From contig JAJTGK010000002.1 of assembly GCA_021297815.1 (NCBI GenBank), forward strand, positions 1 to 63,325: DNA of 63,325 bases, written 5' to 3'. The notes under the pieces were generated by a model that ran no database searches, was not told where the DNA came from, and saw nothing but the letters and a program-made list of their open reading frames with translations. This DNA comes from Planctomycetaceae bacterium. GTDB lineage: Bacteria; Planctomycetota; Phycisphaerae; Phycisphaerales; SM1A02. The first letter of the stretch is position 1, and every line of letters begins with the position of its first letter. The translations under genes were made by a program, and so were the position numbers. Below are positions 6,470-48,510 of the stretch, in pieces.

Positions 6470-6560
6470 CGCCCGCCTTCCGCAGGGCAGCTCGACGGAA
6501 ACTCTGCGCAAGCCGCGGGAATCAGGCCGTTTAGGCGGCTGCAGCGTCGGCCCGACTTGG

Positions 6561-6611: not shown

Positions 6612-6679
6612 CCGTTCGGATGGGGCGGATTCGTCCACGGTGCGACGCATTCCTCCGATAGCATCGCAACCGCACCACC

Positions 6680-16053: not shown

Positions 16054-18675
<2,622 letters not shown>

Positions 18676-23985: not shown

Positions 23986-24656
23986 TGCGTGCGCGCCGAG
24001 GTTTCTCGCTGCTCGAGGCGATCGTCGGCGTCGCGATCGCGACGGCGTTCGTCGGCGCGATCGCCGTGTTCGCGTCGAATCTCGGCGATACGCGCGCGCG
24101 GCTCGGGCGCTCCGCCGCGGAGCTCGAGACCGCCGATGCCGTCTTCGCCGAGGTCGAGCGGGCGTGTGCGACGGCGGTGGTCGACGATGCGCGGCTTGGC
24201 GCTGGGATCGCGGGCAACGAGTCGTCGCTCTCGCTCGTGCGCTGCGCGGTCGGGCTCGGCGAAGGGCGCGATGAACTCCTGTCCGACCGCAGCATGGTTC
24301 GCGTCGAGTTCGACGGAGCGCGCGGTCGCATCGCCCTTGCCCGCGGTTCGCTGCGCGACGAGCTGCCTGCGCCCGTGCGCGCGATGCGCGTGCGCTACCT
24401 CGCCGACGATGGATGGGTCGATGCGTTCGACAGCGCCGAGCACGGGGCATTCCCCGCGCTGCTCGAGGTCTCGATCTGGTTCGAGCGCGGAGAAGCGAGC
24501 GCTGCGGAGGCGCCCCAGCCGCCGGCCGAGGTCGAAGGCGACGCCGCGCCTGCCGAGGAAACCCGCGCCGACCGCGTGCGCGTGTTCCGCATCGCGGGCG
24601 CACCGCGCATCGACCCGCTTGCGATCCGCAGGCTGCGCGAGGAGCGTGGGCCATGA
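23982..24656 (+). CDS. gspJ: Minor pseudopilin GspJ-like protein
   Basis: 224 residues. RRG/FSLLEAIVGVAIATAFVGA is a clear prepilin signal. The length and the region FDGARGRIALARGSLRDEL followed by MRVRYLADDGWVDAF match GspJ, which reports a residual strain in a parsed sequence. GspJ forms the I-J-K tip complex of the pseudopilus. It overlaps gspI at its start and gspK at its end by 4 bases each. Confidence 0.8.
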   Translation: MMRARRGFSLLEAIVGVAIATAFVGAIAVFASNLGDTRARLGRSAAELETADAVFAEVERACATAVVDDARLGAGIAGNESSLSLVRCAVGLGEGRDELLSDRSMVRVEFDGARGRIALARGSLRDELPAPVRAMRVRYLADDGWVDAFDSAEHGAFPALLEVSIWFERGEASAAEAPQPPAEVEGDAAPAEETRADRVRVFRIAGAPRIDPLAIRRLREERGP

Positions 24657-26224: not shown

Positions 26225-27768
26225 GCGAAGCGAAGCCCGCCACGAACTCCCTGCAACGACTCTCGCGTTCGCCCGCGCGCACGGCGGAGGCGCGAGGCGT
26301 CGCGGTCGAGCCGTTCGACGGTGGCGTGCGCGCGGTGCGCTGCACGCGTGCGGGCGAGCGGCTTGCCGTCGCAGGTGCGGTTTCCGTGGCCATGGATGCG
26401 GCTGGAACGGCCGCAGCCCTGCTCGAGGGCGCGGGGGTGTTCGCGAACGGCGCCGCATCGAGGGATGTCGTGGCCGTGCTGCCGCGCGAGCACGCGCTCG
26501 TCGGCACGATCGAGCTGCCCACCGACGACGAGGCCGAGATGCGCAGCATCGCGCGCATGGCGCTCGCGCGCGACTATTCGCCCGAAGGCGTGGATTCGCA
26601 GGGAGATTTCCAGGTCTACGAACTCGGCGGCCGCACGAAGGCCGTGCTTGCCGCCACGCCGCGCGCGCGCCTCGACACGGTGCGTTCGGCGCTCTCGGGG
26701 CTCGCTTGCGCGCGCATCGGCGTGCGGGCGCTCGGCATGCTTGCGCTGGTGCGCACGAACCCCTTGTGGGCGCAGGGCACCACGCTGGTCGTGGATGCGC
26801 CGCGCGGCGCCGTCGAGATCTCGCTCGTCGCAGGCGGCGAACTGCTCCACTCGCGCGGAACCTCGCTTGTCGCCGCGTCGCCCGAGGCGTTTGCCGCGCA
26901 GGTGGTGGCCGAGTCGCGCCGCGCCCTGGCGATGCTGCGCGCCTCGATGCCGTCGCTCGCCATCGCGCGCGTCGTCGTTGCCGCGGAGCCCGTGGCCGCG
27001 CGCGTGATCGCCGAGCAGGTCGCGGCCGCCGCGGCGTGCGCGGCCGAACGGTTCGAGTCGCATCCGCTGGTCGATGTTCCTGCAGGCCAGGTGGGCGAGA
27101 CGCTGTGCGCCGAATGCTGGCCGCTCGCGGGCCTGCTTCTCGAGGACGCGCGCGTCGCGCAGCGCGCGGGCCGCGCCATCGATCTCGCGCATCCCACGCC
27201 GCCCATCGATGTGGCGGCGCGCGCGCGGCAGCGCATGCTTGCCGCCGCGGGAATCCTGGTGGTCGCCGCGCTCGCGGGCTGGACGCTCGGCGCGCGCAGC
27301 TTCCGCGCGCTCGAGGAACGCCGCGACGACCTCAAGGACAAGGCGACCAGCGCGCTCCCCGAGGTGCGGCGCATGAAGCGCGACGAGCTCAAGCTCGCCC
27401 ACATCGACGCCGTTCGCGCGATGCAGCCCGCGTGGCTCGACCACTTCGAGGCGCTGCGCCGCTTCGCGCCCGATCCTGCGAGCGTCGTCCTCGACGGGCT
27501 GAGCGCGCAGATCGCAGGCACCGAGGTCGAGTTCACGCGTGACGGAAAGTTCATGGCACGCCCCGAGATCCGCTTCGTGCTCGACGGCGAGGCCAAGGAC
27601 CGCGAGACGGCCGACGCGCTGCGCGATGTGCTCGTGAAGGAGAGGTCCTACACCCTCAGTTCGTCGGGCGCCGATGCGCGCGGCGGGCGCAGGCTGCCGT
27701 ACCCGTTCGCCTACACGCTGCGCACGGTGGAGCTCGCGCCGAAGCAGCCCGCGGGAGGCGAACGATGA
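26221..27768 (+). CDS. gspL: GspL-like (PilM/PilN-like) assembly platform protein
   Basis: 515 residues. Residues about 25-310 form an actin-like cytoplasmic domain as in PilM and GspL (VVAVLPREHALVGTIELPTD, ALARDYSPEGVD, LVVDAPRGAVEISLV). A single membrane helix (about 339-358) leads into a periplasmic ferredoxin-like domain resembling PilN (RRFAPDPASVVLDGLSA). GspL recruits GspE from the cytoplasm and pairs with GspM. Sequence similarity is low, as usual for this family; position, domain order and coupled start (ATGA overlap with gspK) carry the call. Confidence 0.8.
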   Translation: MSEAKPATNSLQRLSRSPARTAEARGVAVEPFDGGVRAVRCTRAGERLAVAGAVSVAMDAAGTAAALLEGAGVFANGAASRDVVAVLPREHALVGTIELPTDDEAEMRSIARMALARDYSPEGVDSQGDFQVYELGGRTKAVLAATPRARLDTVRSALSGLACARIGVRALGMLALVRTNPLWAQGTTLVVDAPRGAVEISLVAGGELLHSRGTSLVAASPEAFAAQVVAESRRALAMLRASMPSLAIARVVVAAEPVAARVIAEQVAAAAACAAERFESHPLVDVPAGQVGETLCAECWPLAGLLLEDARVAQRAGRAIDLAHPTPPIDVAARARQRMLAAAGILVVAALAGWTLGARSFRALEERRDDLKDKATSALPEVRRMKRDELKLAHIDAVRAMQPAWLDHFEALRRFAPDPASVVLDGLSAQIAGTEVEFTRDGKFMARPEIRFVLDGEAKDRETADALRDVLVKERSYTLSSSGADARGGRRLPYPFAYTLRTVELAPKQPAGGER

Positions 27769-28829
27769 GCGCTGCGGCGCGGGCAGATCGCGTGCAGGCC
27801 GTGCGCCGCTTCGTGGCGCGGCGGTGGCTCGCGCTGTCGGTCGCGGCGGGCGCACTCGCCGTGGGCGCCGTCGGCTACCTCATGGGCGAGGGCCGCTTCG
27901 GCGCCGAGCGCGAGGCCGCGCTCAAGGAAATCGACACCTATGTGGCCGTGCTCACCAAGGCTCGCAGCGACCGAGAGAACCGTCCGAAGATGGACGCCCG
28001 GCTGCAGGCAGTCGCCGACCGAACCCTCGGCTCCTCGGTCGAGAGCGTCGACAGCGAGTTCCGCCGTCGACTGAATCGCATGTGCGAGGAACTCGGGCTC
28101 TCCGAGTTCTCGGTCACGACCGGCGTATCTATGGGGCGTGCCACGCCGGCGAAACGAGAATTTAGTCGCCCCTCCGAGCGGAGCCTGCGCGACGAACCTG
28201 ACTTCTTCGAAGTCCAGGGAACCGTCAGTGCCAGTGGCGGGGTGGACCAGCTGCTTGGTCTCGTGTTCCGAGTCGACGCCGATCCGTGGCTGAAGCGAAT
28301 GGAGTCGATCCGACTAGATCCGAACACGGACGGGACAAAGGTCAGAATGACCCTAAAGGTCTCAACGCTGTTCATGCCAGGCCGCAATGCGTCGAAGCCG
28401 CTAGTCCTTGATCCAAAGGCACTTGCGGCGGCGAACCGCTATTCGGTGCTGTTCGCAGCCAATCCGTTCCGGATCCCTGAGGCGCAGGTCGTGACCGTTC
28501 CGACGGCACCCGTCGCGCCGTCGAGCACCCCGCCGCAACCTCCCGCGGCAGCGCCTTCCGCAAACACCGCGGCACCTCCCGCGCCCAATCCTGGCTTCCC
28601 GTACGGTGAGTGGTTGGTGACAGGAGTCATCGAGGGCCCCGCGGGCCCCGAGGCGTGGTTGCGTCATGTTCCGACTGGATCGCAACTTACGCTGACGCCT
28701 GGTGTGGCCGTCGGCGAATTGGTTTTCCGCTCCGTGCGGTACGATTTCGCTGAGTTTGACGCTCCCGCTGGATCCTGTCGGATCCAGATCGGGAACAACC
28801 TCACCCAGCGCATCGGAGGCGCTGGGTAG
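27765..28829 (+). CDS. gspM: GspM-like platform protein with a C-terminal GspC/PilP-like HR domain
   Basis: 354 residues. A membrane helix (about 23-42) precedes a periplasmic coiled stretch and a ferredoxin-like region, as in GspM/PilO. After a Pro/Ala linker (about residues 248-280), the last ~70 residues (WLVTGVIEGPAGPEAWLRH, then LTPGVAVGELVFRSVRYDF) look like the homology region of GspC or PilP, which contacts the secretin N0 domain. No separate gspC is in the cluster, so this protein may combine both roles. From about nt 28040 the codon use changes: CTA, AGA, AGT, TTT and TCT appear, unlike the neighbours. It overlaps gspL by 4 bases; gspD starts 117 bases later. Confidence 0.7.
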   Translation: MSAAARADRVQAVRRFVARRWLALSVAAGALAVGAVGYLMGEGRFGAEREAALKEIDTYVAVLTKARSDRENRPKMDARLQAVADRTLGSSVESVDSEFRRRLNRMCEELGLSEFSVTTGVSMGRATPAKREFSRPSERSLRDEPDFFEVQGTVSASGGVDQLLGLVFRVDADPWLKRMESIRLDPNTDGTKVRMTLKVSTLFMPGRNASKPLVLDPKALAAANRYSVLFAANPFRIPEAQVVTVPTAPVAPSSTPPQPPAAAPSANTAAPPAPNPGFPYGEWLVTGVIEGPAGPEAWLRHVPTGSQLTLTPGVAVGELVFRSVRYDFAEFDAPAGSCRIQIGNNLTQRIGGAG

Positions 28830-28946: not shown

Positions 28947-31900
28947 ATGCCGAAGCGGCCGATCGACTCGACCCATGTTGTGACGCCGCTGATCCTCGCG
29001 GCGGTTTCGGTCCAGCCCATCGTGATTGCCGCGTCTGCAGATACGCCGGTCCAGGATGCCGCACAGTCGGCGCCCGCACCCGCCGCGCAGTCCGCACCCG
29101 CGCCGCAGTCCGCACCCGCGCCGCAGTCCGCCCAACAGCCCCCGCGCATCCGCTTCAACTTCAAGGGGCAGACCTACGACCAGATCCTCGACTACTTCTC
29201 GCGCACGACGGGCTACCCCGTGGTTCGCGAAACCGAGGTCCCGAAGGGCACCGTCGACTACATCTTCCCGAAGGACTACTCGCTCGACGAGGCGCTGCAG
29301 ACGCTGAATGTCCTCCTCCAGACGCAGAACTGCATGCTGCGCGTCGAGGGCGGCAGGATGTTCCTGCAGAAGCTCGACGACATGAAGCGCGAGAATGTGC
29401 CGACCTATGTGGGCATGCTTCCCGCGCAGGTGAGCGACGACCAGGTCGTCACCGTGCTGCTGCCGCTGCTCAACGCGCAGGCGAAGCCCGTCGCCGAGCA
29501 GCTCAAGAACCTCATCGCGACCTACGGCTCGGTGACGGCGCTCGAGCAGCAGAACGCCGTGCTCGTCGTCGAGACCGCCGCGCAGATCCGCCGCCTGCAG
29601 AAGCTCATCGATGAGCTCGACCGCCAGGATGTCGAGAACATCATCGAGTTCATCCCGATCCGCAACACGAAGGCGTCGCTCCTCATGCAGAGCCTGCAGG
29701 CGCTGATGGGCGAGCGCGTCGTCGAGTATGTGGTGAACCCCGCCGACGGCAAGCGCGTGAAGATCGAGGAGAACCGCGTGGCGGGCCTCGTGATCGCGGC
29801 CGACGACCGCACCAACTCGATCGTCGCGCGCGGCGCGAAGGCGAAGATCGACCAGCTGCGGCAGACGATCGACCTCCTCGACATTCCCGCGGCCAACGAC
29901 GCGGCGCCCACCGCCTCGGGCGGCCGCGGCATGAAGACCTTCGAGGTGCCGAAGGTGAAGGCCGCGTCGGCGAAGGAGCGGCTCGACCAGCTGTTCGCCG
30001 CGTACCCCGCCGACAAGAAGCCGACGATCGTCGCGCTGCCCGAGGCGAACCGCGTGACCGTGGTCGGCGACCTCGGCTCGATCGACGACGCCGAGCGGCT
30101 GGTGAACGAGATGGAGGGCTTCGACCCCTCGCGCGCGCCCGCGAAGCCGTCGGCGACCGTGCGCGAGCGCCTGCGCGGCGACCGCGCGGTGGCCGCGCTC
30201 GAGCTCGAGAGCGCGTCGCCCGAGGCGATCCTTGCGGCGGTGAAGTCGCTGCTCTCGAAGCGCCAGCAGGACGAGATCGCGCTCGTCGCGGGGCCCGACG
30301 GCCGCACGCTGCTTGTCGCGGCCGATTCCGCCGACATCACGGGCGTGCGCGCCATCGTCGAGACGCTCGACCGCCCGCAGAACATCGAGCGCCAGGTGCG
30401 CCTGATGCGCGTGACGAGCGCCGACGCCGAGGCGAGCGTCTCGCGCGCGCGCGAGCTGTACGAGCAGCAGACGCCCGCGGCCGACGCGTCGCGCAGCCTG
30501 CGCATCGAGCTTGACGCGAAGAGCCGCGAGCTCGTGCTCGTCGGCAGCGCGCAGGGCATCGCGCGATTCACCGAGCTCCTGAACCAGGTCGACGCCACGC
30601 GCGCCATCGAGCGCGAGACGCGCCAGGTCGCGCTCCTCAACACGCTGCCGAGCACGGTCGCGCCGCAGCTGCGCGAACTCGCGAAGCAGGTCCTCGACCC
30701 GCGCGACGGCACCGTGTTCACGCCGCCGTCGATCGAACCCGTCGACGCGCTGAAGCAGGTCATCGTCTCGGGCACGCCCGCGCAGGTCGCGCAGGTGCAG
30801 CAGCTCGCCGCGGGCCTCGACAGGCCGAACCGCGATGCATACGCGTTCCGCGCCATTCCCGTTCCTGGCGTCGATGCGGCGCGGCTCGTCGAGCGCGCGG
30901 CCGCCGTGTACGCGCAGCTTGCGAAGGGTGCGCCCGAAGGCGAGCGCGATCTTCCGCAGGTCGAGGTCGATGCGTCGAGCGGCGCGCTGCTCGTGAGCGG
31001 CCGCCGCGAGGCCGTGGCTGCGTACGAGCAGGCGCTCGCGCAGGCGCGCCTGCTGCTTCCGCCGCCGCGCACCGCGAAGCTCGTGCCGATGAAGGCCGCG
31101 CTTGCCGCCGATGTCGCCGCGAAGCTCGGGCCGCTGCTCGCATCCGCCGCACCCGTCGATCCGTCGCGCACGGTGCCGCCCGCCGAGATCCGCGTGGTCG
31201 AGCCGACCAACGCGCTCTATGTCGTGGGCGAGGCGCCGCAGGTCGCGATGGTCGAGTCGTTCATCGCCGACCTCGATGTCGCGTCGGCCGAGGCGCTGCC
31301 GCCGCTCCGCCTGCTGCAGCTCCGCGGCGGCGACGCGCCGCAGATCGCAACGATGCTCACGCAGCGCTACGGCGCGCGCGCCCCCGACGAGCGCCGCGCG
31401 AAGCCCGTGCGCGTCGAGGCCGACGCGACCACGAACACGCTCGTCGTGACCGCGCACGCCGATGTGTTCGACGAGATCCGTTCGTTCGTCGAGGACATCA
31501 ACCGTGCGGGCGAGAACGCGGGTGCACCCGCGCGCGAGACCTTCGTCGTCGCGCTCAAGGCCGCGAAGGCCGCCGACCTCGCCGCGGCGCTCGACCGCCT
31601 GTACCCCGCGCCGCCCGTGCCGCTCGACGCGCGCGGTCGGCCGCTGCCGCACCTCCAGAAGCCGAAGGAGGTCTTCGTCGCCGCCGACGCGGTGACGAAC
31701 TCGCTGATCGTCGAGGCGCCGACCGAGCGCCGCGCGAGCTTCGTGCAGCTCGTCGAGACGCTCGACCGCACGCCGCTGCCGCCGCAGGCGGAGCTGCGCA
31801 CCTACCGCGTCGAGAAGGGCGACCTCGAGCGCATCGCGGGAAGCCTGCGCGACCTCGCCGCGCGCGGCATGCTTGCGAAGCCGTCGACCGACGGCGCGAA

Positions 31901-34900
31901 GCCCGTCGAGGTGCTCGTTCAGACCGAGGCCGCGAGCCGCACGCTGATCGTCGCGGGCGACGCGACGACCTTCGAGAAGACCGAGGCGCTGCTCAAGCAG
32001 CTGCAGGCCGTGCCCGTGAAGCGCGGCGTGCGCGTCATCGACGCGGGCGCCGCCGACCCCGCGCAGGTCGTCGCGAAGGCGATGAAGCTCGCGGGCATCG
32101 AGCCGCCCGCGGAAGGCGCCGACCCCGCGGTCGCCACCGAGATCGACGCCGCGAACGGCACGATCGTCGCAAGCGGCGAGGAGGAGCCGCTCGCGCGCTT
32201 CGCCGAGTCGTGCCGCCAGCTGCTGGCCGCGACCTCGCCAAGCGCCGATGTGCGCGTGGTCGCGCTCACGCACGCGAAGGCCGCCGACGCGAAGGCGTAT
32301 CTCGACGGACTTGCGAACAGCCGCCTCGGCCAGAGCGCGGGCTTCGCGCGCGAACCTGCGATCGAGGTGCTCGAGCGCACGAACTCGCTGCTCGTCGCCG
32401 CCGATGCGCGCCAGCACGAGCTGCTCGCGGTGCTCGTCCGCAACCTCGATGTGCCGTCTGGCACCACGCCGCCGCTGCGCATCCTGCAGCTTCGCACCGC
32501 CGACGCGGCCACGCTCGCGCAGGCGCTCAACGCGAGCTACATGCAGCGCTCGCTCGAGGAGAAGGCCGCGAAGCCCGTGCAGGTGTCGTCCGAGCCGCAG
32601 ACGAACGCGCTCATCGTGGCCGCGCACCCCGATGTGCTGCCCGAGATCCAGAAGATCGTCGAGGAGCTCAACGGTTCGTCGCGCCAGTCGGCGAGCGACC
32701 GCGAGATCCGCATCTTCTCGCTGAAGGTCGCGCGCGCCGCCGAGCTCGCGAAGACGATCGACGAGATGTACCCGCAGCCGCCCGTGCCCGTCGACCCCCG
32801 CGGTCGCGCGCGCCCCGAGCTGCAGCCGCCGCGCGAGGTGGTCGTGCGCGCCGATGTGCAGACGAACTCGCTCATCGTCGACGCGCCCGTCGGCCGCATG
32901 GCGGGCTTCGACAAGCTCGTCGAGCAGCTCGACCGCGCGCAGGCGACGCCCGAGGCCGAGATCCGCACCTGGCGGCTCGCCGACAGCAGCCTCGAGACGG
33001 TCGCGAAGACGATCAAGGACCTCGCGGCCGCGGGGCAGCTCGGCAGCGAGGGCGCGACGACGGTCGTCTCGGTGGAACCCGTGTCGAAGACGCTCGTCGT
33101 GAGCGGCGTGCCCGCGGTCTTCCCGAAGATCGAGCAGGTCGTGCGCGGCGTCGAGGGCGCGGCGCAGCCCGCGACCACGCTGCGCGTGTTCAAGCTGAAG
33201 TCTGCGAGGGCCGAGTCGCTCGCACCGATCGTGCGAAGCGCGCTCGAGGGCCGTCTCGCGCAGATCGATCCCACGCTTGCGTCGAAGCCTGGCCGCGTGC
33301 TCGATGTCGCCGCCGAGCGACGGTCGAACGCGCTCATCATCAGCGCGCCCGATGCGCTCATGCCCGTGGTCGAGGAGCTTGTTCGCCAGCTCGACGACGG
33401 CAGCGCGAGCGCGGGCGACCCCGTGGTGCGCGTGAAGCCGCTCGCGTACGCCGATGCGGCGCAGGTCGCGGCGAGCCTCTCGCAGGCGCTCGCCGCAGCG
33501 ACGAATCCCGCGACGCGCGAGCCGCTCGCGGTGAAGGTGATTCCCGCGGCGGGCGCGAACGCGCTTCTGCTCGTGGGACCTGCGACCGATCTCGACGAGG
33601 CCGAGAAGCTCATCACGCCGCTCGACGAGCGGCCCGCGCTCGACGCGGTCGACGCGAAGACCTTCGCGCTCAAGAACGCCGACAGCACGCGGCTCGCGCC
33701 GCTCGTGCAGCGGCTGCTCAGCGACCAGCAGGAGACCGATCCTCGCATCGTGCTCGAGCGCATGCGCCGCAACCGCGGCCAGGCCGACTCGGTGCCACCC
33801 GTGCGCGTCGAGCCTGATCCGCGCACGAACTCGCTCATCGTGTCGGGCGCGTCGCGCATCATGGCGGTGGCCGAAGGGCTGATCCGCGAGCTCGACCGCG
33901 ACGGCGACGCCGCGTCGCGCACCTGGAGCGTGTTCACGCCAAGCAAGGCGCCCGTCACGCAGCTCGTCGACGAGGCGCGCCGCGTGCTCGACGCGACGCT
34001 GCCGCAGGGTGGCGCGCGGCTCGAGCTGTCGGCGCTGCCGCAGTCGGGCACGGTCGTCGTCGTCGGCACCGCCGAGCAGGCCGAGCGCGCGAAGGCGCTG
34101 CTCGCCGAGCTCGACGGCAAGGCGTTCGCCGCGCCCGAGGCCGATTTCCGCGTGGTGCAGCTCAAGCATGTCGCGCCCGATGTCGCGGTGTCCGCGCTCA
34201 ACGGCGTGCTGCTCGACCGCTCGCGCTGGCCCGCGTCGCTCGTCGCCGCCGCGAAGGCGGGCGCGCCCGTGATGGAGCCGAAGGTCGTCGCCGACCCGCT
34301 CAACGCGCGCGTCGTGGTCACGGCGCCGTCGGCGCTCATGGCCGTCGCCACGCAGGTCGTCGAGCAGCTCGACCGCCCGCGCGAGGGCGATTCGCCCGCC
34401 GAGATCCGCGTGTATCCGCTGTCGCAGGCGGGCGCGGCCGATGTCGCGAAGGCCGTCGAGCAGGCGCTCGCGGCGCGCAGCGCGTCGCGCCCGAACGCGC
34501 GCAAGGCGTCGGTGAGCGCCGAGCCGACGAGCAACTCGATCGTGGTCGCCGCCGATCCCGCGCAGCTCGACGAGGTCGATGCGGTCATTCGCGCGATCGA
34601 TGTGCGCGGTCCGCGCGATGCGGCGCGCGTGCGCACGGTGTTCCTGAAGCACGCGCGCGCCGAGCAGATGGCGCCGCTCGTCGAGCAGCTGCTTGCTGGC
34701 GAGGCGAAGCGCGCCGAGCGCGCGCGGCCTTCGGCGGGCGCCGCGGTGGCCGCCGAGCCCGAGCTGCGCGTGATCGCCGACGCGCGTCTGAACGCCGTCG
34801 TCGTGAGCGCGACGCCCGGCGCGCTCGACGCCGCCGAGCAGATGCTCGCGCAGCTCGATGTGGCGCCAGGGCAGGGCGTCGAGCGCGCGGTGCGCGTCCT

Positions 34901-37900
34901 CACGCTGCGCAACGCCGACGCCACCGAGATCGCGCGCAACCTGACCGACCTCTTCGAGACCGACGACGGAACCGAGACGCCGCCGATCATCCGCGTCAGC
35001 GCCGCGAGCAACAGCCTGCTCGTGCGCGCCACCGACCGCCAGTTCGAGACGATCGAAGGCGTGGTGTCGAAGCTCGATGGCGCCGCGATCGGCGGCGCGC
35101 GCACGCTTCGTTCGGTGCCGCTCGACCCGTCGCGCGGCGATGCCGAGGAGATCGCGCGTCTGCTGCGCCGCATGCTCGAGGAGGGCGCGGGCGAGGTCGA
35201 GGTGATCTCGGTCGAGGAACTGCTGAAGCGCTACGACGCGCCGAAGCCCGAGGGCAAGACGCAGGGCCGCGCGCTGCCGCGCACGGGCGACTTCGGCATG
35301 CCGTCGTGGCCGCCCGCGCTGCCTGCGAGGCTTGCGGCCGTCGTGACGGCGGCATTCGCGCAGGTTCCGCCCGCCGATGCCGCGGCGGCGGGCGGTGACA
35401 CGAAGAGCGGCGACGGCGTGACGGTCGCCGTCGACAAGGATTCGAACTCGCTTCTCCTTCTCGGTTCTCCGCGCGAGATCGAGCGCGCGCTGCGGCTCGT
35501 CGAGCAGGCGGCGCGCACGCTGCCCGTCGAGGGCTCGCGCATCCGCGCGGTGCGGCTTCCTGCGTCGAGCGATGCCGCGAAGCTCGCGTCGCTTGTGAAC
35601 GGTGCCCTTGCGCGCATGACGCCCGCGGGCGGCACGGCGGGCGACCTCGCGAAGCGTGTGGCGGTCGTCGCCGACGAGGAGACGCGCTCGCTGCTCGTCG
35701 TCTCGAACGACCGCGACTTCGAGGCCGTGGGGCAGCTCATCGCGACCGTCGCGCGCGGACAGCAGTCGGAGCAGCTCGTCGTGAAGAGCTATGTGCTGCG
35801 GAACGCGGGCGCGTCGCGCGTCGCCGAGGCGCTGCAGTCGGTGGTCGCGCAGGGCGCGGGCGCGAAGCTGCGCTCGCTCGCCGTGACGATCGTCGGCGAC
35901 GGCGCGCCCGACCCGGCGGCCGCCGAGCGCGCGTTCGATCCGTCGCGGCTCCGCGTCGTGGCCGAGAAGGACGCGAACGCCGTCACCGTGATCGGTTCGC
36001 CCGAGGCGGTCGCGTTCGCCGACCGCTTCATCGCGTTCGCCGACCGCGAGGAACGCGCGGTGGCGCCCGAGATGCGCCTCGTGCCGCTCAAGCACGCGAA
36101 GGCCGCGGAACTTGCGAGGAGCCTGCAGGCGATCTTCGCCGCGCGCGGCCGCGCGCTGTCGCAGCAGGGGATGGTGGTGTCGATCCCCGAGTTCGCGCCC
36201 GACGAGCGCACGAACATGATCGTGGTCGCGGGCGGCGCCGAATCGAGCGCCGAGATCGAGCGGCTCGTCGGCATGCTCGACCAGCCCACCGCGAGCGGCG
36301 CGCAGCCGCTCGAGACGATCGCGCTCGCGTCGGCGGTGCCGAGCGTGGTGGCGACGACGATCGACAAGGTCGTGCTCTCGGTCGACGCGACGCGCCGTGC
36401 GTCGACGCAGGTCGTGGCCGACGACGCCGCGGGCGTGCTGCTCGTGCGCGCGGAGCCCGCGGTGCTCGAGGAGATCCGCGCGGTGGTCAAGGAGACCGAC
36501 CGTGCGGGCGCGCGGCAGTACGCGATCCGCCAGATCAAGCTCGAGCGCGCCGATGCGTCGCGCGTCGCGACGGCGGTGCAGAAGCTCTTCGACGACCGCG
36601 CGGCGATCGCCTCGGGCGGCCGCGCGCGCGGCGCGCGCAGCGTGTCGATCGTGGGCGACCCGCGCAGCAGCACGCTGTTCATCGCGGCGAGCGACACCGA
36701 TCTCGCCGAGATCACCGAGCTCGTGAAGGGCTTCGACGCCGCCGACGCCGCGCCCGCGTTCGACTTCAAGGTCTTCGCGCTGAAGGAGGCGCGCGCGGGC
36801 GAGCTCGCGCGCACCGTCGAGCAGATGGTCGGCGACATGGGTCGCGGCGGCGCGCCCGCTGGCGACGACGCCGTCAGCGTGCGCGCCGACGAGAAGCGCA
36901 ACCTGCTCGTCGTCGCGGGCCGCGGCGACCGCTTCGCGCTGGTCGCGCAGATCGTCGAGATGCTCGATGTGAAGCCCGCGGAGGGCGAGCAGCGCCTCGT
37001 GCGCACCTACCCCGCGCCCGCGGGCGAGCTCGATCAGGTCGCGGGCCTCGTGCGCGACGCGATCGGCGAGCGGCCGCAGCGGCCGTGGGAGTCGCAGGCA
37101 CCCGCAGGTGCGGGCGGCGCCTCGCGCGTCATCCCCATCGCGCGCTCACGGCAGATCGTGGTGCGCGCCACCGCCGCGCAGCACGACGAGGTCAAGTCGC
37201 TCCTCGAGGCGCTCGGCAAGACGCTCGTCCAGGAAGGCCGCCAGACCGCGGTGATCCCCGTCGAGTTCGCGTCGCCCGCCGAACTCGCCTCGACGCTGCG
37301 CCAGTTCCTCGACGACCGCGCCGCGGGCAACGGCGGCGCCGCGAGCACCGCGACGATCGTCTCGTCGGCGTCGGGCGGCGCGCTCCTCGTCGCAGGAAAC
37401 GCCGATGAAATCGCCACGGTCCGCGACCTCGTCGCGCGCCTCGACCAGCCGCAGACGGGAACCGACCGCCGCAGCGACATCATCGTGCTGCGCAAGGGCC
37501 AGGCCGGCGACATCGCGCGCATGGTGGGCGAGCAGTTCAAGGCGCGCGGAGGCACGGGCGGCGTGGCCATCACGCCCGATGTGCGCACGAACAGCGTGCT
37601 CGTGTCGGCACCCGCCGCGCAGTTCGAGCAGGTGCGCGCGCTCATCGACCGCCTCGATGCGCCGTCGAGCGCCGAGGAGTCGATCATCCGCACCTTCACG
37701 CTCTCCTCCGCGAAGGCGGACGACGCGGTGAAGGTGCTCACCACCGCGCTGCAGCTCGACGCGAAGGGCCGCACGCAGGGCGTCGCGGTGAAGGTCGACG
37801 AGGCGGGTCCCGCCGTGCAGGTGAACGCGCGCATCGTGGCCGACCGACGGTCGAACTCGATCGTGGTCACCGCGACCGCCGAGAGCTTCCCCGTGATCGA

Positions 37901-40900
37901 GAAGCTCCTCTCGCAGCTCGAGCAGTCGCCGTCGCGCGTGCAGGTCGAGTACCGCATCATCGCGCTCAAGGCCGCGAACGCGACCGAGGTCGCGGGCACG
38001 CTCGACAGGCTGGTCGGCACCGAGATCAAGAGCGACGGCACCGAGCCTGCGCGCATCGAGGCCGATCTCGCCGAGAACCGCCTGATCGTCGCGTCGACGC
38101 CCGAGCAGTTCGAGACGATCCGCAAGGTCGTCGAGGCGATCGATGTGGCGCCGCTCTCGAAGCGCATCACCGAGTTCGTCGCGCTGAAGGCCGCGAAGGC
38201 CCGCGGCGTGCAGGAGGCGCTCGGCTACTTCTACGGCCGTGGCGCGCTCGACACCGATTCGCCCGCGAAGAAGTCGGTGCGCATCGTGGCCGACGAAGGC
38301 ACGAACTCGCTCGTCGTCTCGGCCGAGGAATCGGAGTGGCCCGCGATCCGCGAGCTCGTCGCCAAGCTCGACGACGAGCAGTACGACGGCTCGCGCCAGC
38401 TGCGCGTGGTCGGGCTCAAGCACGCCGACGCGAAGTCGGTCGCCGCGGCGATCAACGAGGCGTTCAAGCCGCAGCCGATCGTGGCGCCGCCCGCGCAGCG
38501 CGGTGCGGAGCAGCAGCCGATCGTCGTGCAGCAGAAGACCGAGGAGCTCGTCACCGCGAGCGCCGACGCGTTCTCGAACAACCTCGTCATCGCGGCAAGC
38601 CCCGCGAACATGCGCAAGATCGACGCGATCATCGCGCAGCTCGACCAGCCCGACTTCTCGCAGCTTCCGCCGCCGCAGCTGATCCAGGTGCGCTACGGCA
38701 ACCCCGAGCAGCTCGCGCGCGCGATCGAGCGCGTGTACGGCCCGGGCCGCGAGGCGGGCCGCGACCGCGGGCTGCGCATCGTGGGCGACGCGACCAGCAA
38801 CGCGCTCATCGTGCGCGCGTCCGAGGAGGACTTCGCGCAGATCTCGGCCATCGCCGAGGCGCTGCAGCAGCAGGCGGGGGAGCAGGGGCTGCAGGTGCAT
38901 CTCCTGCGCCTGAAGAGCGCGCCCGCGCCGCGCGTGGCCGCCGCGATCCGTGAGGCGTTCGTGCAGCGCGCGCGGCAGGCGAACCTTCCGTTCTCGATCC
39001 AGATCGACACCGTGTCGAACAGCCTGGTCGTCGCGTCGACGGGCCCGCTCTTCGACGAGGTGAAGTCGCTCGTCGAGCAGATGGACGCGCTCGCGCCCGA
39101 CGCGTCGAAGGGCATCTTCATCATCGACCTCACGAACACCTCGCCCGAGGCCGCGAAGAAGGTGATCGAGGACATCGGCCTCGACCGTCCGCAGCCCGCG
39201 GACAGCGTGTCGAAGGTCGTGTCGGAGCCGATCAAGGTCTCTGTCGCGACGGGGCGCGCGGCGCTCGTCGTGGTGGCGAACCCCGCCGACCGCGACACCA
39301 TCCTGTCGCTCCTCAAGTCGATCGACGCGGAGCCGCCAGGGGCCGACGCCGATGTACGCATCGTGCGCATGAAGAACGCGGCCGCCGCGGGCGTGGCGCA
39401 GATCATGAACGCGATGGTCGCGCAGGGCACGCAGCCCGCGGGCGCGGCGGGCGCGTCGCGCCAGGCCGATCTCGCGCGCGCGCTGCAGGAGCAGGTGCGC
39501 CGCCTGCGCATCCAGCCCGACGGCGCGGGTTCGCCGATCGCGCTCGACCTGCAGAAGCCGATCCGCATCCTCGCCGATGCGACGAGCAACTCGATCCTCA
39601 TCTCGTCGACCAAGGAGAATGTGGCGGCGCTCGAGGAGGCCGCGCGCCTCTTCGACACGCTGCCCGTCACCGAGGCGGCCGTGGTGCGCGTCTTCCCGCT
39701 CGAGAACATCCAGGCGACGCAGTTCATGCGCATCGTGCGCGAGCTCTTCACGCAGGGCAAGCAGATCGGCGCGCTCACGGGCACGCAGGTGAAGGCCGTC
39801 GCCGAGAGCGCGACGGGCGCCGCGCTTGCGCAGGACATCGCGATCTCGGTCGACGACCGCACGAACACGGTGGTCGTGGCGGGCAAGGAGGAGGCGGTCG
39901 CGCTCGTCGAGGTGCTGCGCGAGCGCCTCGACTCGCAGCTTTCGGTCGGCTGGATCGAGCCGCGCATCGTGAAGCTGCAGTGGGCCGACGCGCGCGAGAT
40001 CGCCGACACGCTGCGCGCGGTGCTCGTCGAAGGCTCGACGAAGCTTCCCGAGAGCGCGCCGCTCCAGAAGCAGGTCGGCCGCATCCGCATGGCGCGCGAA
40101 GGCGCGGCCGCGGGGCAGGGTGCGATCGAGAGCGATGTGTTCGTGCCGTTCTCGCAGCTCGTGGTTCGGCCCGACCTCGCGACGAACTCGCTCGTCCTCG
40201 TGGGCAGCGTGCAGAACCTCGAGATCGTGGGCGAGCTCATCCGTCAGCTCGACACCGAGGCCGCGGCGCCTGGTTCGCTCGTGCGCATCTATCCGCTCGA
40301 GAACGCGAGCGCGTCGCGCATCGGGCCGCAGATCGTGACGCTCTTCGAGCAGCAGTTCACGGCGAAGGTGATCCGCGCCGAGGACCGCGTGCGCGTGATT
40401 CCCGACGAACGCCTGAACTCGCTCGTCGTCTCGACGAGCCCGCGCAGCTTCGCGGTGATCGAGGAGCTCCTCAAGACGCTCGACCGCAAGGTCGCGCCAG
40501 AGTTCCGCGAGATCCGCACGATCGATGTGAAGAACGCGAGCGCGCCGCGCCTCGCCGCGATCCTGACGCGCATGATGGACGCGCGCGTCGAGCGGCTGAA
40601 GCGCACCAACCCCGAGACCGCCGACCTCGAGCGCGCCGTGATCACGGCCGACGAGCGCACCAACCAGCTGCTCGTCGCCGCGGGCGCCGACGCGTTCGAT
40701 GTGATCCGCTCGCTCGTCGGCGACCTCGACAGCGAGCGCCTCATGGAGGAGTCGTCGGTCGAGGTCGTGCCCGTCCGCAAGACGAACATGGAGCGCCTCG
40801 CGGGCGCGATCGGCCAGATCCTCGACCGCCGCTACGCCGAGCTCACCCCCGAGGTCGCGAAGCGCGTGAAGCCGCTCGTGATCGCCGATCCGCGCACCTC

Positions 40901-43271
40901 GAGCCTGCTCGTCGCGGGCGGCCCCGAGGACGCCGCGATCGTGCGGCAGATCGTGGCGAAGCTCGACGAGATCCCGTCGAACCCCGCGATCGGCGTGCAT
41001 GTGCTGCCGCTGGCGGCGGCGCGCGCCGAGGTCATCGCGCCGCGCCTCCAGTCGCTGATGCGCGACCGCGCGAATTCGCTCGGCACCAGCGAGACGCCCG
41101 CCGACGCCGTGTCGATCGCGCCCGACATCGCGTCGAACTCCCTCATCGTCGCGTCGAGCGAGGAGAACCTCGAGGTCGTGAAGGGCCTCGTCGAGCTCCT
41201 TGCGAAGGCCGCGAAGGACCAGCTCACCGACAGGCCGTTCGAGATCATCGTGCTCGCGAAGTCGACCGCGGTCGACATGGCGCGCATGCTCGACGAGATG
41301 TATGTGGCCGAGGAGAACCGCCGCCGCGGCGAGAACACCGTGCAGGTCTCGGCCGACCAGCGCATCAACGCGATCATCGCGAGCGGCCCCGAGGCCGATG
41401 TCGCGGCCATCCGCCGCCTCGTCGCCCAGCTCGACGGCGCGAAGCCGAGCACGGTCGTCGAGATCAAGTACATCCCGCTCCAGGGCGCGAATGTGCAGGA
41501 GACGGTCGGCCTGATCCAGAGCGTGCTGTCGGGCAACACGCTCGGCGGCCGCAACGCGCAGCAGGCGACCGTGCTCAAGTACCTGCGCGAGATCGAGGGC
41601 GGCGACGGAGGCGAGGTCGAGATGGAGATCTCGGCGGCGACGCGCGCATCGATCTCGCTCACGCCCGATGTGCGCACGAACACGGTGATCGTGCGCGCGC
41701 CGCGCGACTCGATGGCGCTCATCGAGAAGATGATCAAGGACCTCGACAGCTCGACGAGCGGGTCGCAGAACATCCGCATCTTCAAGCTGGCGAACGCCGA
41801 CGCGAGCGCGATGGCGCGCATCCTGAAGGAGCTCTTCAACCTGCGCCAGTCGGGCAACCTCTATGTGCTCAAGCCGCGCGAGGCGGCCGAGGGCGCAGCG
41901 CCCGCGCCTGGTGCCGCGGCGACCGAAGGCACGCTCGGCGCCGACCTCACGCTCGTCCCCGACGACCGCCAGCAGCTCTCGATCACGGTCGACGACCGCA
42001 CGAACTCGCTGCTCGTCTCGGGCACGCCGAACTATCTCGAGCTCGTCGGCAAGGTCGTCGAGGAGCTCGACGCGCAGGAGGCGAATGCGCGCGAGACCAC
42101 GGTGTACAAGCTGAAGAACGCGGCGGCCACCGAGGTCGCGCGCGTGGTGAACGAGTTCGTGAGCGAGGACCAGCGCAAGATCCTGCAGACGCTCTCGGCC
42201 GAGGAGCTGCCGAGCGCCTCGAAGCTGCTCGAGGGCGAGGTGACGGTCGTCGGCGACCAGAAGTCGAACACGGTGCTCGTGACCGCGAGCCCGCGCTATC
42301 TCGAGAAGGTGCGGGCGATCATCGACGAGCTCGATGTCGATCCGCCGCAGGTGCTGATCCAGGTGCTTCTCGCCGAAGTCTCGCTCGACTCGACCGAGTC
42401 GCTCGGCGTCGAGTTCGGCCGCGGCCGCATCGACGATGTCGCGGTCGCCGCGGGCATGGGCAACCTTCCTGGCATCGGAAGCCGTGCGGGCACGCAGCTG
42501 CTCGGCTCCCTCTTCACGAACTCGGGCACGCCCAATGTGGCGATCGGCGCCGAGGACTTCGAGCTCCTCATCAACGCGCTCGCGTCGCAGAGCCGCGTGC
42601 AGGTGCTGTCGAACCCGAGCGTGATGGTCGAGAACAACTCCGAGGGCTTCCTGCAGGTCGGCGAGACGATCCGCCTGCCGTCGGGCGTGAGCTTCTCGAG
42701 CGCGGGGCAGCAGTCGAGCGTGACGCCCGAGGACATCGGCATCCTGCTCAAGGTCACGCCGTCGATCAACCCCGAGGGCTTCGTGCGCATGGAGATCGAG
42801 CCCGAGATCTCGCGCCTCTCGCTGCAGACCACGCAGATCTCGGAGAACTTCAACTCGCCCGTGGTCACGCGGCGCCGCGCCACCACGACTGTCACCGTGA
42901 AGGACGGGCAGACCGTCGTGATCGGCGGCCTGATCAGCGACCGCTTCGAGCGCGTCGACAAGAAGGTGCCGCTGCTCGGCGACATTCCGCTCGTGGGCGC
43001 GCTGTTCCGGCAGTTCAAGGAGAACACCTCGAAGACCGAGCTCCTGATCGTGCTGACGCCGCATGTGGTGCGCTCGCCCGCGTCGGGCGGCGTCGAGCGC
43101 GCGAAGGAGCTCGCCGAGGAGCAGCTGCGCAAGCTCAACCTGCCGCCCGCGCTGATCGACCAGATCCGCAAGGGCGAGCTCGACGGAACGGGCTCGCGTG
43201 TCGACGACGGCCGTCGCACGAATGTCGAGCGCTCCGCGCCCGCCGATCCCGCGACGGAGCCGAAGCCATGA
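28947..43271 (+). CDS. gspD: Giant type II secretion secretin (GspD) with about 52 tandem N-domains
   Basis: 4,774 residues; ordinary GspD is 600-800. In order: a signal peptide-like segment (about 10-30), a Pro/Ala/Gln linker, an N0 domain (IRFNFKGQTYDQILDYFSRT), then about 52 N-domain repeats, then the secretin barrel domain. Each repeat is about 85 residues and centres on a strand such as TNSLIVSA followed by a helix ending LVxxLD. The barrel shows VQVLSNPSVMVENN, VKDGQTVVIGGLISD, VPLLGDIPLVGALFR and LIVLTPHVV. A ~65-residue helical, charged tail may be a pilotin-binding S domain. The oligomer would form the outer-membrane channel plus an extremely long periplasmic tube. ATG 28947 is chosen (AAGGA 8 bases upstream); GTG 28917 would add 10 residues. 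A block of about 390 residues is duplicated internally. The frame is intact throughout. Confidence 0.93.
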   Translation: MPKRPIDSTHVVTPLILAAVSVQPIVIAASADTPVQDAAQSAPAPAAQSAPAPQSAPAPQSAQQPPRIRFNFKGQTYDQILDYFSRTTGYPVVRETEVPKGTVDYIFPKDYSLDEALQTLNVLLQTQNCMLRVEGGRMFLQKLDDMKRENVPTYVGMLPAQVSDDQVVTVLLPLLNAQAKPVAEQLKNLIATYGSVTALEQQNAVLVVETAAQIRRLQKLIDELDRQDVENIIEFIPIRNTKASLLMQSLQALMGERVVEYVVNPADGKRVKIEENRVAGLVIAADDRTNSIVARGAKAKIDQLRQTIDLLDIPAANDAAPTASGGRGMKTFEVPKVKAASAKERLDQLFAAYPADKKPTIVALPEANRVTVVGDLGSIDDAERLVNEMEGFDPSRAPAKPSATVRERLRGDRAVAALELESASPEAILAAVKSLLSKRQQDEIALVAGPDGRTLLVAADSADITGVRAIVETLDRPQNIERQVRLMRVTSADAEASVSRARELYEQQTPAADASRSLRIELDAKSRELVLVGSAQGIARFTELLNQVDATRAIERETRQVALLNTLPSTVAPQLRELAKQVLDPRDGTVFTPPSIEPVDALKQVIVSGTPAQVAQVQQLAAGLDRPNRDAYAFRAIPVPGVDAARLVERAAAVYAQLAKGAPEGERDLPQVEVDASSGALLVSGRREAVAAYEQALAQARLLLPPPRTAKLVPMKAALAADVAAKLGPLLASAAPVDPSRTVPPAEIRVVEPTNALYVVGEAPQVAMVESFIADLDVASAEALPPLRLLQLRGGDAPQIATMLTQRYGARAPDERRAKPVRVEADATTNTLVVTAHADVFDEIRSFVEDINRAGENAGAPARETFVVALKAAKAADLAAALDRLYPAPPVPLDARGRPLPHLQKPKEVFVAADAVTNSLIVEAPTERRASFVQLVETLDRTPLPPQAELRTYRVEKGDLERIAGSLRDLAARGMLAKPSTDGAKPVEVLVQTEAASRTLIVAGDATTFEKTEALLKQLQAVPVKRGVRVIDAGAADPAQVVAKAMKLAGIEPPAEGADPAVATEIDAANGTIVASGEEEPLARFAESCRQLLAATSPSADVRVVALTHAKAADAKAYLDGLANSRLGQSAGFAREPAIEVLERTNSLLVAADARQHELLAVLVRNLDVPSGTTPPLRILQLRTADAATLAQALNASYMQRSLEEKAAKPVQVSSEPQTNALIVAAHPDVLPEIQKIVEELNGSSRQSASDREIRIFSLKVARAAELAKTIDEMYPQPPVPVDPRGRARPELQPPREVVVRADVQTNSLIVDAPVGRMAGFDKLVEQLDRAQATPEAEIRTWRLADSSLETVAKTIKDLAAAGQLGSEGATTVVSVEPVSKTLVVSGVPAVFPKIEQVVRGVEGAAQPATTLRVFKLKSARAESLAPIVRSALEGRLAQIDPTLASKPGRVLDVAAERRSNALIISAPDALMPVVEELVRQLDDGSASAGDPVVRVKPLAYADAAQVAASLSQALAAATNPATREPLAVKVIPAAGANALLLVGPATDLDEAEKLITPLDERPALDAVDAKTFALKNADSTRLAPLVQRLLSDQQETDPRIVLERMRRNRGQADSVPPVRVEPDPRTNSLIVSGASRIMAVAEGLIRELDRDGDAASRTWSVFTPSKAPVTQLVDEARRVLDATLPQGGARLELSALPQSGTVVVVGTAEQAERAKALLAELDGKAFAAPEADFRVVQLKHVAPDVAVSALNGVLLDRSRWPASLVAAAKAGAPVMEPKVVADPLNARVVVTAPSALMAVATQVVEQLDRPREGDSPAEIRVYPLSQAGAADVAKAVEQALAARSASRPNARKASVSAEPTSNSIVVAADPAQLDEVDAVIRAIDVRGPRDAARVRTVFLKHARAEQMAPLVEQLLAGEAKRAERARPSAGAAVAAEPELRVIADARLNAVVVSATPGALDAAEQMLAQLDVAPGQGVERAVRVLTLRNADATEIARNLTDLFETDDGTETPPIIRVSAASNSLLVRATDRQFETIEGVVSKLDGAAIGGARTLRSVPLDPSRGDAEEIARLLRRMLEEGAGEVEVISVEELLKRYDAPKPEGKTQGRALPRTGDFGMPSWPPALPARLAAVVTAAFAQVPPADAAAAGGDTKSGDGVTVAVDKDSNSLLLLGSPREIERALRLVEQAARTLPVEGSRIRAVRLPASSDAAKLASLVNGALARMTPAGGTAGDLAKRVAVVADEETRSLLVVSNDRDFEAVGQLIATVARGQQSEQLVVKSYVLRNAGASRVAEALQSVVAQGAGAKLRSLAVTIVGDGAPDPAAAERAFDPSRLRVVAEKDANAVTVIGSPEAVAFADRFIAFADREERAVAPEMRLVPLKHAKAAELARSLQAIFAARGRALSQQGMVVSIPEFAPDERTNMIVVAGGAESSAEIERLVGMLDQPTASGAQPLETIALASAVPSVVATTIDKVVLSVDATRRASTQVVADDAAGVLLVRAEPAVLEEIRAVVKETDRAGARQYAIRQIKLERADASRVATAVQKLFDDRAAIASGGRARGARSVSIVGDPRSSTLFIAASDTDLAEITELVKGFDAADAAPAFDFKVFALKEARAGELARTVEQMVGDMGRGGAPAGDDAVSVRADEKRNLLVVAGRGDRFALVAQIVEMLDVKPAEGEQRLVRTYPAPAGELDQVAGLVRDAIGERPQRPWESQAPAGAGGASRVIPIARSRQIVVRATAAQHDEVKSLLEALGKTLVQEGRQTAVIPVEFASPAELASTLRQFLDDRAAGNGGAASTATIVSSASGGALLVAGNADEIATVRDLVARLDQPQTGTDRRSDIIVLRKGQAGDIARMVGEQFKARGGTGGVAITPDVRTNSVLVSAPAAQFEQVRALIDRLDAPSSAEESIIRTFTLSSAKADDAVKVLTTALQLDAKGRTQGVAVKVDEAGPAVQVNARIVADRRSNSIVVTATAESFPVIEKLLSQLEQSPSRVQVEYRIIALKAANATEVAGTLDRLVGTEIKSDGTEPARIEADLAENRLIVASTPEQFETIRKVVEAIDVAPLSKRITEFVALKAAKARGVQEALGYFYGRGALDTDSPAKKSVRIVADEGTNSLVVSAEESEWPAIRELVAKLDDEQYDGSRQLRVVGLKHADAKSVAAAINEAFKPQPIVAPPAQRGAEQQPIVVQQKTEELVTASADAFSNNLVIAASPANMRKIDAIIAQLDQPDFSQLPPPQLIQVRYGNPEQLARAIERVYGPGREAGRDRGLRIVGDATSNALIVRASEEDFAQISAIAEALQQQAGEQGLQVHLLRLKSAPAPRVAAAIREAFVQRARQANLPFSIQIDTVSNSLVVASTGPLFDEVKSLVEQMDALAPDASKGIFIIDLTNTSPEAAKKVIEDIGLDRPQPADSVSKVVSEPIKVSVATGRAALVVVANPADRDTILSLLKSIDAEPPGADADVRIVRMKNAAAAGVAQIMNAMVAQGTQPAGAAGASRQADLARALQEQVRRLRIQPDGAGSPIALDLQKPIRILADATSNSILISSTKENVAALEEAARLFDTLPVTEAAVVRVFPLENIQATQFMRIVRELFTQGKQIGALTGTQVKAVAESATGAALAQDIAISVDDRTNTVVVAGKEEAVALVEVLRERLDSQLSVGWIEPRIVKLQWADAREIADTLRAVLVEGSTKLPESAPLQKQVGRIRMAREGAAAGQGAIESDVFVPFSQLVVRPDLATNSLVLVGSVQNLEIVGELIRQLDTEAAAPGSLVRIYPLENASASRIGPQIVTLFEQQFTAKVIRAEDRVRVIPDERLNSLVVSTSPRSFAVIEELLKTLDRKVAPEFREIRTIDVKNASAPRLAAILTRMMDARVERLKRTNPETADLERAVITADERTNQLLVAAGADAFDVIRSLVGDLDSERLMEESSVEVVPVRKTNMERLAGAIGQILDRRYAELTPEVAKRVKPLVIADPRTSSLLVAGGPEDAAIVRQIVAKLDEIPSNPAIGVHVLPLAAARAEVIAPRLQSLMRDRANSLGTSETPADAVSIAPDIASNSLIVASSEENLEVVKGLVELLAKAAKDQLTDRPFEIIVLAKSTAVDMARMLDEMYVAEENRRRGENTVQVSADQRINAIIASGPEADVAAIRRLVAQLDGAKPSTVVEIKYIPLQGANVQETVGLIQSVLSGNTLGGRNAQQATVLKYLREIEGGDGGEVEMEISAATRASISLTPDVRTNTVIVRAPRDSMALIEKMIKDLDSSTSGSQNIRIFKLANADASAMARILKELFNLRQSGNLYVLKPREAAEGAAPAPGAAATEGTLGADLTLVPDDRQQLSITVDDRTNSLLVSGTPNYLELVGKVVEELDAQEANARETTVYKLKNAAATEVARVVNEFVSEDQRKILQTLSAEELPSASKLLEGEVTVVGDQKSNTVLVTASPRYLEKVRAIIDELDVDPPQVLIQVLLAEVSLDSTESLGVEFGRGRIDDVAVAAGMGNLPGIGSRAGTQLLGSLFTNSGTPNVAIGAEDFELLINALASQSRVQVLSNPSVMVENNSEGFLQVGETIRLPSGVSFSSAGQQSSVTPEDIGILLKVTPSINPEGFVRMEIEPEISRLSLQTTQISENFNSPVVTRRRATTTVTVKDGQTVVIGGLISDRFERVDKKVPLLGDIPLVGALFRQFKENTSKTELLIVLTPHVVRSPASGGVERAKELAEEQLRKLNLPPALIDQIRKGELDGTGSRVDDGRRTNVERSAPADPATEPKP

Positions 43272-48499: not shown

Positions 48500-48510
48500 C
48501 CGGTGCGCAC

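Follow-up and report, generated by a model that had tools for sequence, protein, structure and literature searches.

A giant GspD-type secretin with 52 N1-type domains in one open frame of a planctomycete genome, and the long periplasmic tube that it may form

The window (the whole stretch of DNA that was analysed, 63,325 nucleotides) carries a giant gspD gene whose product consists of an N0 domain, 52 N1-type domains and a GspD barrel in one open frame. Its features, with the evidence for each in brackets, are:

28947..43271, plus strand: giant gspD (4,774 aa from the ATG; 4,784 aa from a GTG at 28917)
28947..29039, plus strand: N-terminal hydrophobic signal-like segment, residues 1-31 (hydrophobicity windows)
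29148..29411, plus strand: N0 domain, approximately residues 68-155 (phmmer to XcpQ N0-N1-N2 structures)
29412..42359, plus strand: array of 52 N1-type (Secretin_N) domains, residues 156-4471 (iterated profile, Pfam, AlphaFold2, Foldseek)
31281..32021, plus strand: domains 9-11, near copies of domains 14-16 (pair scores)
32454..33176, plus strand: domains 14-16, partners of domains 9-11 (pair scores)
35079..35537, plus strand: domain 25, an interrupted N-domain, residues 2045-2197 (split profile match, AlphaFold2)
35226..35417, plus strand: insert of 64 aa that interrupts domain 25, residues 2094-2157 (mostly modeled at a pLDDT of about 40-50)
35316..35360, plus strand: signal-peptide-like hydrophobic stretch, residues 2124-2138, then Q (hydrophobicity)
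42576..43073, plus strand: secretin barrel domain PF00263, residues 4544-4709 (Pfam)

Positions 28917 (GTG) to 43271 form a single listed open reading frame, and translation from the ATG at 28947 gave 4,774 residues with zero internal stops, so the single intact frame described in the sequence-only reading of this DNA stands. The signal-like start proposed in that reading is present as a hydrophobic segment, residues 1-31, judged by hydrophobicity alone; the six most hydrophobic 15-residue windows of the protein all begin at residues 11-16. Residues 57-309 were aligned by phmmer to the XcpQ N0-N1-N2 structures 4e9j, 4ec5, 5ngi and 5mp2 (E about 1e-5), which supports the N0 domain that had been placed at the start. 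The secretin barrel claimed for the C-terminus was matched by Pfam at residues 4544-4709 (161 bits against a cut-off of 27.5). The NCBIfam identity of the giant was GspD, with model TIGR02517 scoring 1,260.7 bits against a cut-off of 351.35, although this score is inflated by the 28 stretches matched, the best of which spans residues 4274-4712. Together with relatives bearing planctomycete titles, the GspD match supports the view that this is a GspD-type secretin in a planctomycete.

In the giant, Pfam matched Secretin_N in 44 stretches and the Secretin barrel once, and the NCBIfam GspD model matched 28 stretches. A profile iterated on the repeats returned 53 rows, with about 83 residues per domain. 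Two of these rows, at residues 2045-2110 (E 7e-4) and 2094-2197, belong to the same domain, which a long insert divides in two, and the count is therefore 52 N1-type domains, with domain E-values from 1.6e-12 to 8e-25. The profile behind this count was built from the repeats themselves, and the independent counts are the 44 stretches of Pfam and the 28 of the GspD model. The earlier estimate of about 52 N-domains thus agrees with the iterated profile (52 at residues 156-4471), and the Pfam count shows that there are not just a few of them. Linkers between domains are short, as matches of the iterated profile overlap or sit at most 3 residues apart. AlphaFold2 prediction of residues 2363-3241 (40 sequences; alignment A2, 39 of 76 relatives, those with the full orthologous 11-domain stretch) gave 11 consecutive beta-alpha-beta-beta-alpha modules with a mean pLDDT of 78.3, that is, 11 N-domain-like modules in series. 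All 17 of the 17 best PDB matches to this model by Foldseek were secretins, and the top-ranked chains were of GspD type, including ExeD, EpsD, PulD and XcpQ. The 11-domain monomer model had a pTM of 0.40 and its multi-domain Foldseek matches an rmsd of about 10-42 Å, so it does not provide the geometry of a ring stack.

Within the array, domains 9-11 are the closest copies of domains 14-16 (pair scores 167, 239 and 134, versus a mean of 51.7), a likeness that we read at the sequence level as a five-domain block duplication. A DNA tandem-repeat search with periods of up to 500 found four short arrays in the gene (periods 16-28 bases, 1.9-3.2 copies) and no tandem array of the domain period of about 250 bases, which indicates that the domain copies are old and diverged and not the product of a stuttered assembly. 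Separately, the penultimate N-domain, domain 51 (residues 4268-4383, positions 41748-42095), has a loop, NLYVLKPRE...DLTLVPD, that recurs in several relatives and is a candidate binding site close to the barrel.

Domain 25 differs from its neighbors in being interrupted. AlphaFold2 prediction of domains 23-26 (47 sequences; alignment A3, with 46 of 47 used and L093, which contains X, left out) showed beta-alpha, a low-confidence insert, and then beta-beta-alpha. The insert of the window protein holds ALPARLAAVVTAAFA, then Q. Long loops in domain 25 far exceeded the remaining long loops in hydrophobicity (median 1.92, n=31, versus 0.45, n=387) and were signal-like by a simple ad hoc rule in 27 of 31 cases versus 27 of 387, in a comparison of 77 proteins from one collection plus the window, 31 of which had domain-25 loops that were long enough; the relatedness of these proteins inflates the significance of the contrast. 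The stretch in the window protein itself is moderately hydrophobic (1.64), and two other windows in the array are equally so. What appears to be new here is an insert in domain 25 with a signal-peptide-like stretch, at the very point where genus g29 splits the gene (f and g numbers are the family and genus labels of our genome search, and the window's family is f1).

The genes ahead of the giant are those of a type II secretion system (T2SS) cluster:

20927..22105, plus strand: gspF (PF00482, E 8e-57; best model TIGR02120, 299.9 bits, under its cut-off of 424)
22201..22722, plus strand: gspG, major pseudopilin (PF08334; TIGR01710, 104.9 bits, over its cut-off of 88.85)
22794..23546, plus strand: gspH-like pseudopilin (TIGR01708, E 2e-5, under cut-off)
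23560..23985, plus strand: gspI-like pseudopilin (TIGR01707, E 9e-6, under cut-off)
23982..24656, plus strand: third minor pseudopilin-like gene, in the gspJ position (N_methyl PF07963, E 2e-4, 21.1 bits versus 21.2)
24653..26224, plus strand: gspK-like gene (13-sequence profile matching T2SS protein K, 5vtm)
26221..27768, plus strand: gspL, a PilM-PilN type fusion (profile versus PilM and PilN structures)
27765..28829, plus strand: gene at the gspM position with one N-terminal membrane segment (position and topology only)

Several of these assignments fall under curated cut-offs and rest on gene order and weak matches. The gspK-like profile matched 5vtm with an E-value of 0.0028, and other helix-hairpin-helix proteins scored higher. 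The gspL profile matched PilM structures (E 8.5e-18) and PilN (E 0.007); PilM_2 was identified in 9 of 17 gspL members, with the window's member absent from the matches listed. PDB and Pfam searches with the gene at the gspM position gave no confident family match, and no gspE was found in the giant's cluster. Matches to T2SSE above the cut-off numbered 12 on other contigs of the genome, none of them assigned to the giant's cluster, and the window itself has a weak, sub-cut-off match on its minus strand (16636-16875). The "normal gspF-M operon" of the sequence-only reading was therefore found as regards gspF, gspG, three pseudopilin-like genes, the gspK-like gene and gspL, but without a family match for gspM and without gspE. 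Genes related to the K, L and M genes again precede the giant in relatives (19, 21 and 19 hits, respectively, among the loci searched; 12 of 19, 16 of 21 and 13 of 19 were used with the window's own in alignments A4, A5 and A6).

The giant and its cluster are gained and lost together. A relative of gspL was present in 64 of 101 sampled genomes of the family, and at least 58 of these 64 carry a giant frame; the six gspL-positive genomes with no listed giant are assemblies of 360-630 contigs. Among gspL-negative genomes of the family a giant frame was listed in 1 of 37, and 36 of the 101 had neither the gspL neighbor nor a listed giant frame. These counts were made over related genomes and hence are not independent. 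The co-occurrence (58 of 64 versus 1 of 37), with the mostly low pN/pS values described below, supports the suggestion that the giant is probably the working channel. The same genome also encodes a 658-aa secretin with one weak N-domain match and a 952-aa secretin with at least four N-domains, which indicates that the envelope does not oblige every secretin to be giant. Several f1 relatives of 2.2-2.6 Mb (G001, G004, G005, G007 and others) had no gspL neighbor and no listed giant frame, and may be streamlined lineages that have lost the entire system.

Family searches scored part of the candidates in each genome, so that the numbers of matches are minimum values. Secretin frames of 1,200 aa or longer were found in at least 59 of the 101 sampled genomes of the window's family, counting as not giant the 3 genomes that had no listed row. 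In the class, which we infer to be Phycisphaerae from the titles of relatives, homologues above 3,000 residues proved to be common: 43 of 198 sampled genomes had a barrel frame that measured 3,000 aa or more, and in 30 of these it reached at least 4,000 aa. A further 31 genomes had frames of 1,200-2,999 aa, some of them cut by contig ends and some of them split genes. Five genomes bearing giants (G009, G032, G132, G102 and G138) are single contigs, with giants of 4,484-4,856 aa. The longest array found, of 62 domains, is in a gene of family f15. The named relatives (80 loci, 4 of which gave no barrel frame) are planctomycete metagenome-assembled genomes (MAGs), many of them titled Phycisphaerales or Phycisphaerae and others Planctomycetaceae, Planctomycetia or Planctomycetota; the species names in some of the titles, e.g., Chitinophaga, are plainly mistaken.

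Among the best matches listed in a survey of the phylum (294 genomes), frames outside the class were nearly all shorter than about 1,520 aa, with one of 2,701 aa. In another class (59 genomes), listed N-domain frames, which may or may not end in a barrel, measured 2,138-2,442 aa in f112 and about 3,270 aa in f113, and five genomes of that class had barrel proteins of 1,302-1,413 aa with 6-9 N-domains (ten stretches were read, G239 and G156 being without a frame of at least two N-domains). These secretins and longer N-domain frames indicate that moderate expansion is wider than the class. Two barrel-less N-domain proteins were also observed in genomes of another planctomycete class, one of 2,701 aa with about 30 N-domains (L143, genome G431) and one of 1,246 aa with about eight (L152/L153, genome G333); both have an LTEDQ-type start region and, at the other end, a half domain with an RG-rich tail.

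Comparison of 18 complete f1 genes, the window's included, showed arrays of 30-56 domains, with 51 or 52 in 8 of the 18. In four relatives all 52 domains paired one-to-one with the domain of the same number as reciprocal best matches, with mean identities of 48-78%. The 14 other f1 genes, one of them cut by a contig end, had 26-52 reciprocal pairs with the order kept with few exceptions, and shifts in pairing among f1 genes correspond to whole domains missing or extra. Two genomes of another family in the same order have 50 domains each, 38 and 42 of which paired with the window's, and the order was kept in 36 of 37 and in 41 of 41 steps. Based on these collinear pairs, an array of about 50 domains probably predates the split of these families. 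Pairing was poor outside the order: the 62-domain gene had 22 pairs (16 of 21 steps in order), and three f18 genomes had 15-18 pairs with the window array. Relative to L028, of the same genus, the median pN/pS per domain was 0.21 and the highest value 0.45, so that all 52 domains were below 0.5, in keeping with purifying selection. The corresponding median and maximum were 0.42 and 0.72 relative to L042, and 0.52 and 1.07 relative to L027, also of the same genus, with 4 of 52 domains above 0.8.

In all three species of genus g29 the array is broken at domain 25 into two proteins: the first ORF stops after the first half of the domain, and the second comprises a signal-like start and the other half. 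Half-domain profiles (44 and 68 rows; the 68-row set contains duplicates, as some genomes entered through two collections) placed the g29 break at domain 25 with 55-67 bits versus at most 19 for the next-best place. Arrays in f16, f18 and f20 are also encoded in pieces, with the break inside an N-domain at 15 of 15 visible junctions, some read by eye (12 junctions come from a set of 13 loci, the remaining locus being truncated at a contig end, and three further junctions make up the rest). In these families ORF A has a terminal half domain, mostly with a basic tail after it, and ORF B has a hydrophobic start that a linker connects to the complementary half domain. The terminal first half was matched by the profile in 9 of 15 ORFs A and read by eye in the other six; the matches of the initial second halves in ORF B were weak (E-values 0.0003 to 4). 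In one locus (L176, genome G131) the array extends across three consecutive ORFs with 10, 14 and 14 N-domains, the last with the barrel. We also considered whether the f16, f18 and f20 breaks were at the domain-25 site, and rejected this, as their terminal halves were not the best match to the half-domain profiles; a 270-aa fragment of G264 was the exception, at a meaningless 0.2 bits. Since these halves are not specifically domain-25-like, two possibilities are left, old joints that have diverged or a design that originated repeatedly, and one shared junction is not claimed.

The segmented relatives suggest that a single chain is not required for the array. We propose that the window gene represents segments fused at domain 25, or else that an originally single gene was split there in g29. 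It is also conceivable, although we consider it unlikely, that exported segments join into a tube by completing the split N-domain, with beta1-alpha1 coming from one chain and beta2-beta3-alpha2 from the next, and that the fused window protein is still cut, so restoring the two-chain joint. Against a simple joint of this kind, the barrel-less proteins of G431 and G333 likewise end in a half domain, and no barrel gene was present in the 7.7 kb read downstream of the former. If the segmented reading is true, a tube longer than any known secretin would be built in sections.

The giant resembles the GspD of T2SSs (PulD, XcpQ, EpsD and ExeD) in its barrel, N0, N1-type domains and T2SS gene cluster. 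Canonical GspD has three N1-type domains, N1-N3, and the giant differs in having 52 and an interrupted domain 25; the eight best PDB GspD chains are 524-657 aa in length versus its 4,774 aa. As judged from these features, the giant is a GspD that departs from the three-domain arrangement, with an array many-fold longer. The type IV pilus PilQ model TIGR02515 scored 437.7 bits, passing its own cut-off of 284.35 through repeated stretches but well under the GspD model. The split giants of f16, f18, f20 and g29 are like the window gene in having many N-domains (34-44 in total where all ORFs are complete) and a GspD-like barrel end, and unlike it in being two, once three, proteins, the barrel-bearing one with a signal-like start. 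The PilQ of Thermus thermophilus also has more N-domain rings than usual (excerpts of PMC5745081 and PMC4463427), but this type IV pilus secretin has 757 aa, six rings and a length of about 35 nm, compared with 53 predicted rings for the giant. The excerpt of PMC5745081 calls this six-ringed PilQ one of the largest such systems characterized. Among the matches listed from the open-licence PMC literature we recognized no description of a giant or many-ringed planctomycete secretin, and in the part of PMC6461901 available giant genes are mentioned only in the introduction.

Our favored reading, which we consider probable though far from assured, is that the giant is a T2SS secretin whose protomers would form one ring at each N-domain, the approximately 53 rings stacking into a periplasmic guide tube roughly 130-210 nm long. 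Solved secretins have 12-15 protomers. The length is that of 53 rings of 2.5-4 nm each; the smaller figure is a known ring height, and the larger derives from the length of Thermus PilQ minus 10 nm for the secretin barrel. The N0 domain would meet the platform in the inner membrane (GspF, GspL) and the barrel would open in the outer membrane, with the pseudopilus and folded substrates presumably running inside the closed tube. The array would have grown at least partly by block duplication, its length differing between genera by whole domains, and in some lineages separate segments would meet inside an N-domain. Stacks of N-domain rings have a precedent in Thermus PilQ, whose six rings, at 350 Å, span most of a wide periplasm (excerpt of PMC5745081) of about 70 nm (excerpt of PMC4463427). 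A link between the giant and a deep, invaginated periplasm, as suggested in the sequence-only reading, may or may not hold: the planctomycete periplasm can be greatly enlarged in other genera, but crateriform structures there are located where the membrane is not invaginated (both from an excerpt of PMC5394234), and the window's genome also encodes the shorter secretins described above. The available part of PMC6532946 yielded no ring heights, and TamB, sought as an independent gauge of periplasm width, had no match in 41 of 41 genomes of the family.

Other readings of the array were weighed against the stacked tube. The last few N-domains might form rings while the 40 or more others are a flexible chain that reaches or tethers the inner membrane, like beads on a string. 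AlphaFold2 gave no confident inter-domain arrangement, and N0 and N1 were disordered in earlier secretin structures (excerpt of PMC6882859), both in keeping with such a chain. However, the identity and order of individual domains are conserved beyond the needs of a linker, the linkers between domains are short, and a single-chain tether does not explain the separate-chain arrays of relatives; we regard the flexible chain as unlikely. The giant could instead be a precursor cut at the domain-25 stretch into N0, 24 domains and half of domain 25, and the other half, 27 domains and the barrel, two proteins held together by the shared domain. The far more hydrophobic and more often signal-like loops of domain 25, its low-confidence insert and the g29 genes, which in three of three species encode precisely these two parts, all point toward cleavage, which would be compatible with ring stacking. 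An old gene-fusion fossil would nevertheless look identical, and the stretch in the window protein is short, only moderately hydrophobic and matched by two other array windows, and so we think a cut precursor quite improbable.

The machine might also be type IV pilus-like, with the giant acting as a pilus guide instead of a protein-secretion channel. The gspL of PilM/PilN type would fit this, as would the pili-like fibers on crateriform pits in planctomycetes of other genera (excerpt of PMC5394234). Against it, the GspG model scored above its cut-off, the GspF model outscored the PilC models, GspD exceeded PilQ by 1,260.7 to 437.7 bits, and no AMIN domain was among the Pfam matches listed. PilM/PilN-type components are common to T2SSs and type IV pili, and in GspL the PilM and PilN parts are joined in one protein, as they are here. 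We consider a pilus guide improbable. Finally, the fragmented state of the MAG that holds the window (180 contigs, 88% complete) could raise the suspicion of an assembly artifact, with repeats collapsed or duplicated, or of a pseudogene in decay. The giants in five single-contig genomes, the collinear orthologous domains of relatives, the lack of DNA repeats at the domain period and a pN/pS below 0.5 in every domain relative to L028 led us to reject both artifact and pseudogene, whose probability we consider close to nil.

The stacked tube, if correct, would mean that genomes across a bacterial class, with about 30-60 N-domains compared with the six rings of Thermus PilQ, encode very long closed protein conduits inside the cell envelope. 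The domain count, which varies by whole domains between genera, could then act as a genetic ruler of the debated geometry of the planctomycete periplasm. In addition, the split and fused forms represent a natural experiment on ring stacking without a continuous chain, and give a testable assembly rule for the tube.

Other repeats were observed elsewhere in the window. Positions 6413-6612 hold short repeats based on GGCACGTGCCA and a related unit, and positions 48510-48766 hold 2.2 copies of a 118-bp unit with 95% matches. At 56419-57112 a GC-rich unit of 88 bp occurs about eight times head to tail, and two copies of it, as DNA, fold somewhat better than shuffles (z -2.9; 5 of 200 shuffles did as well).
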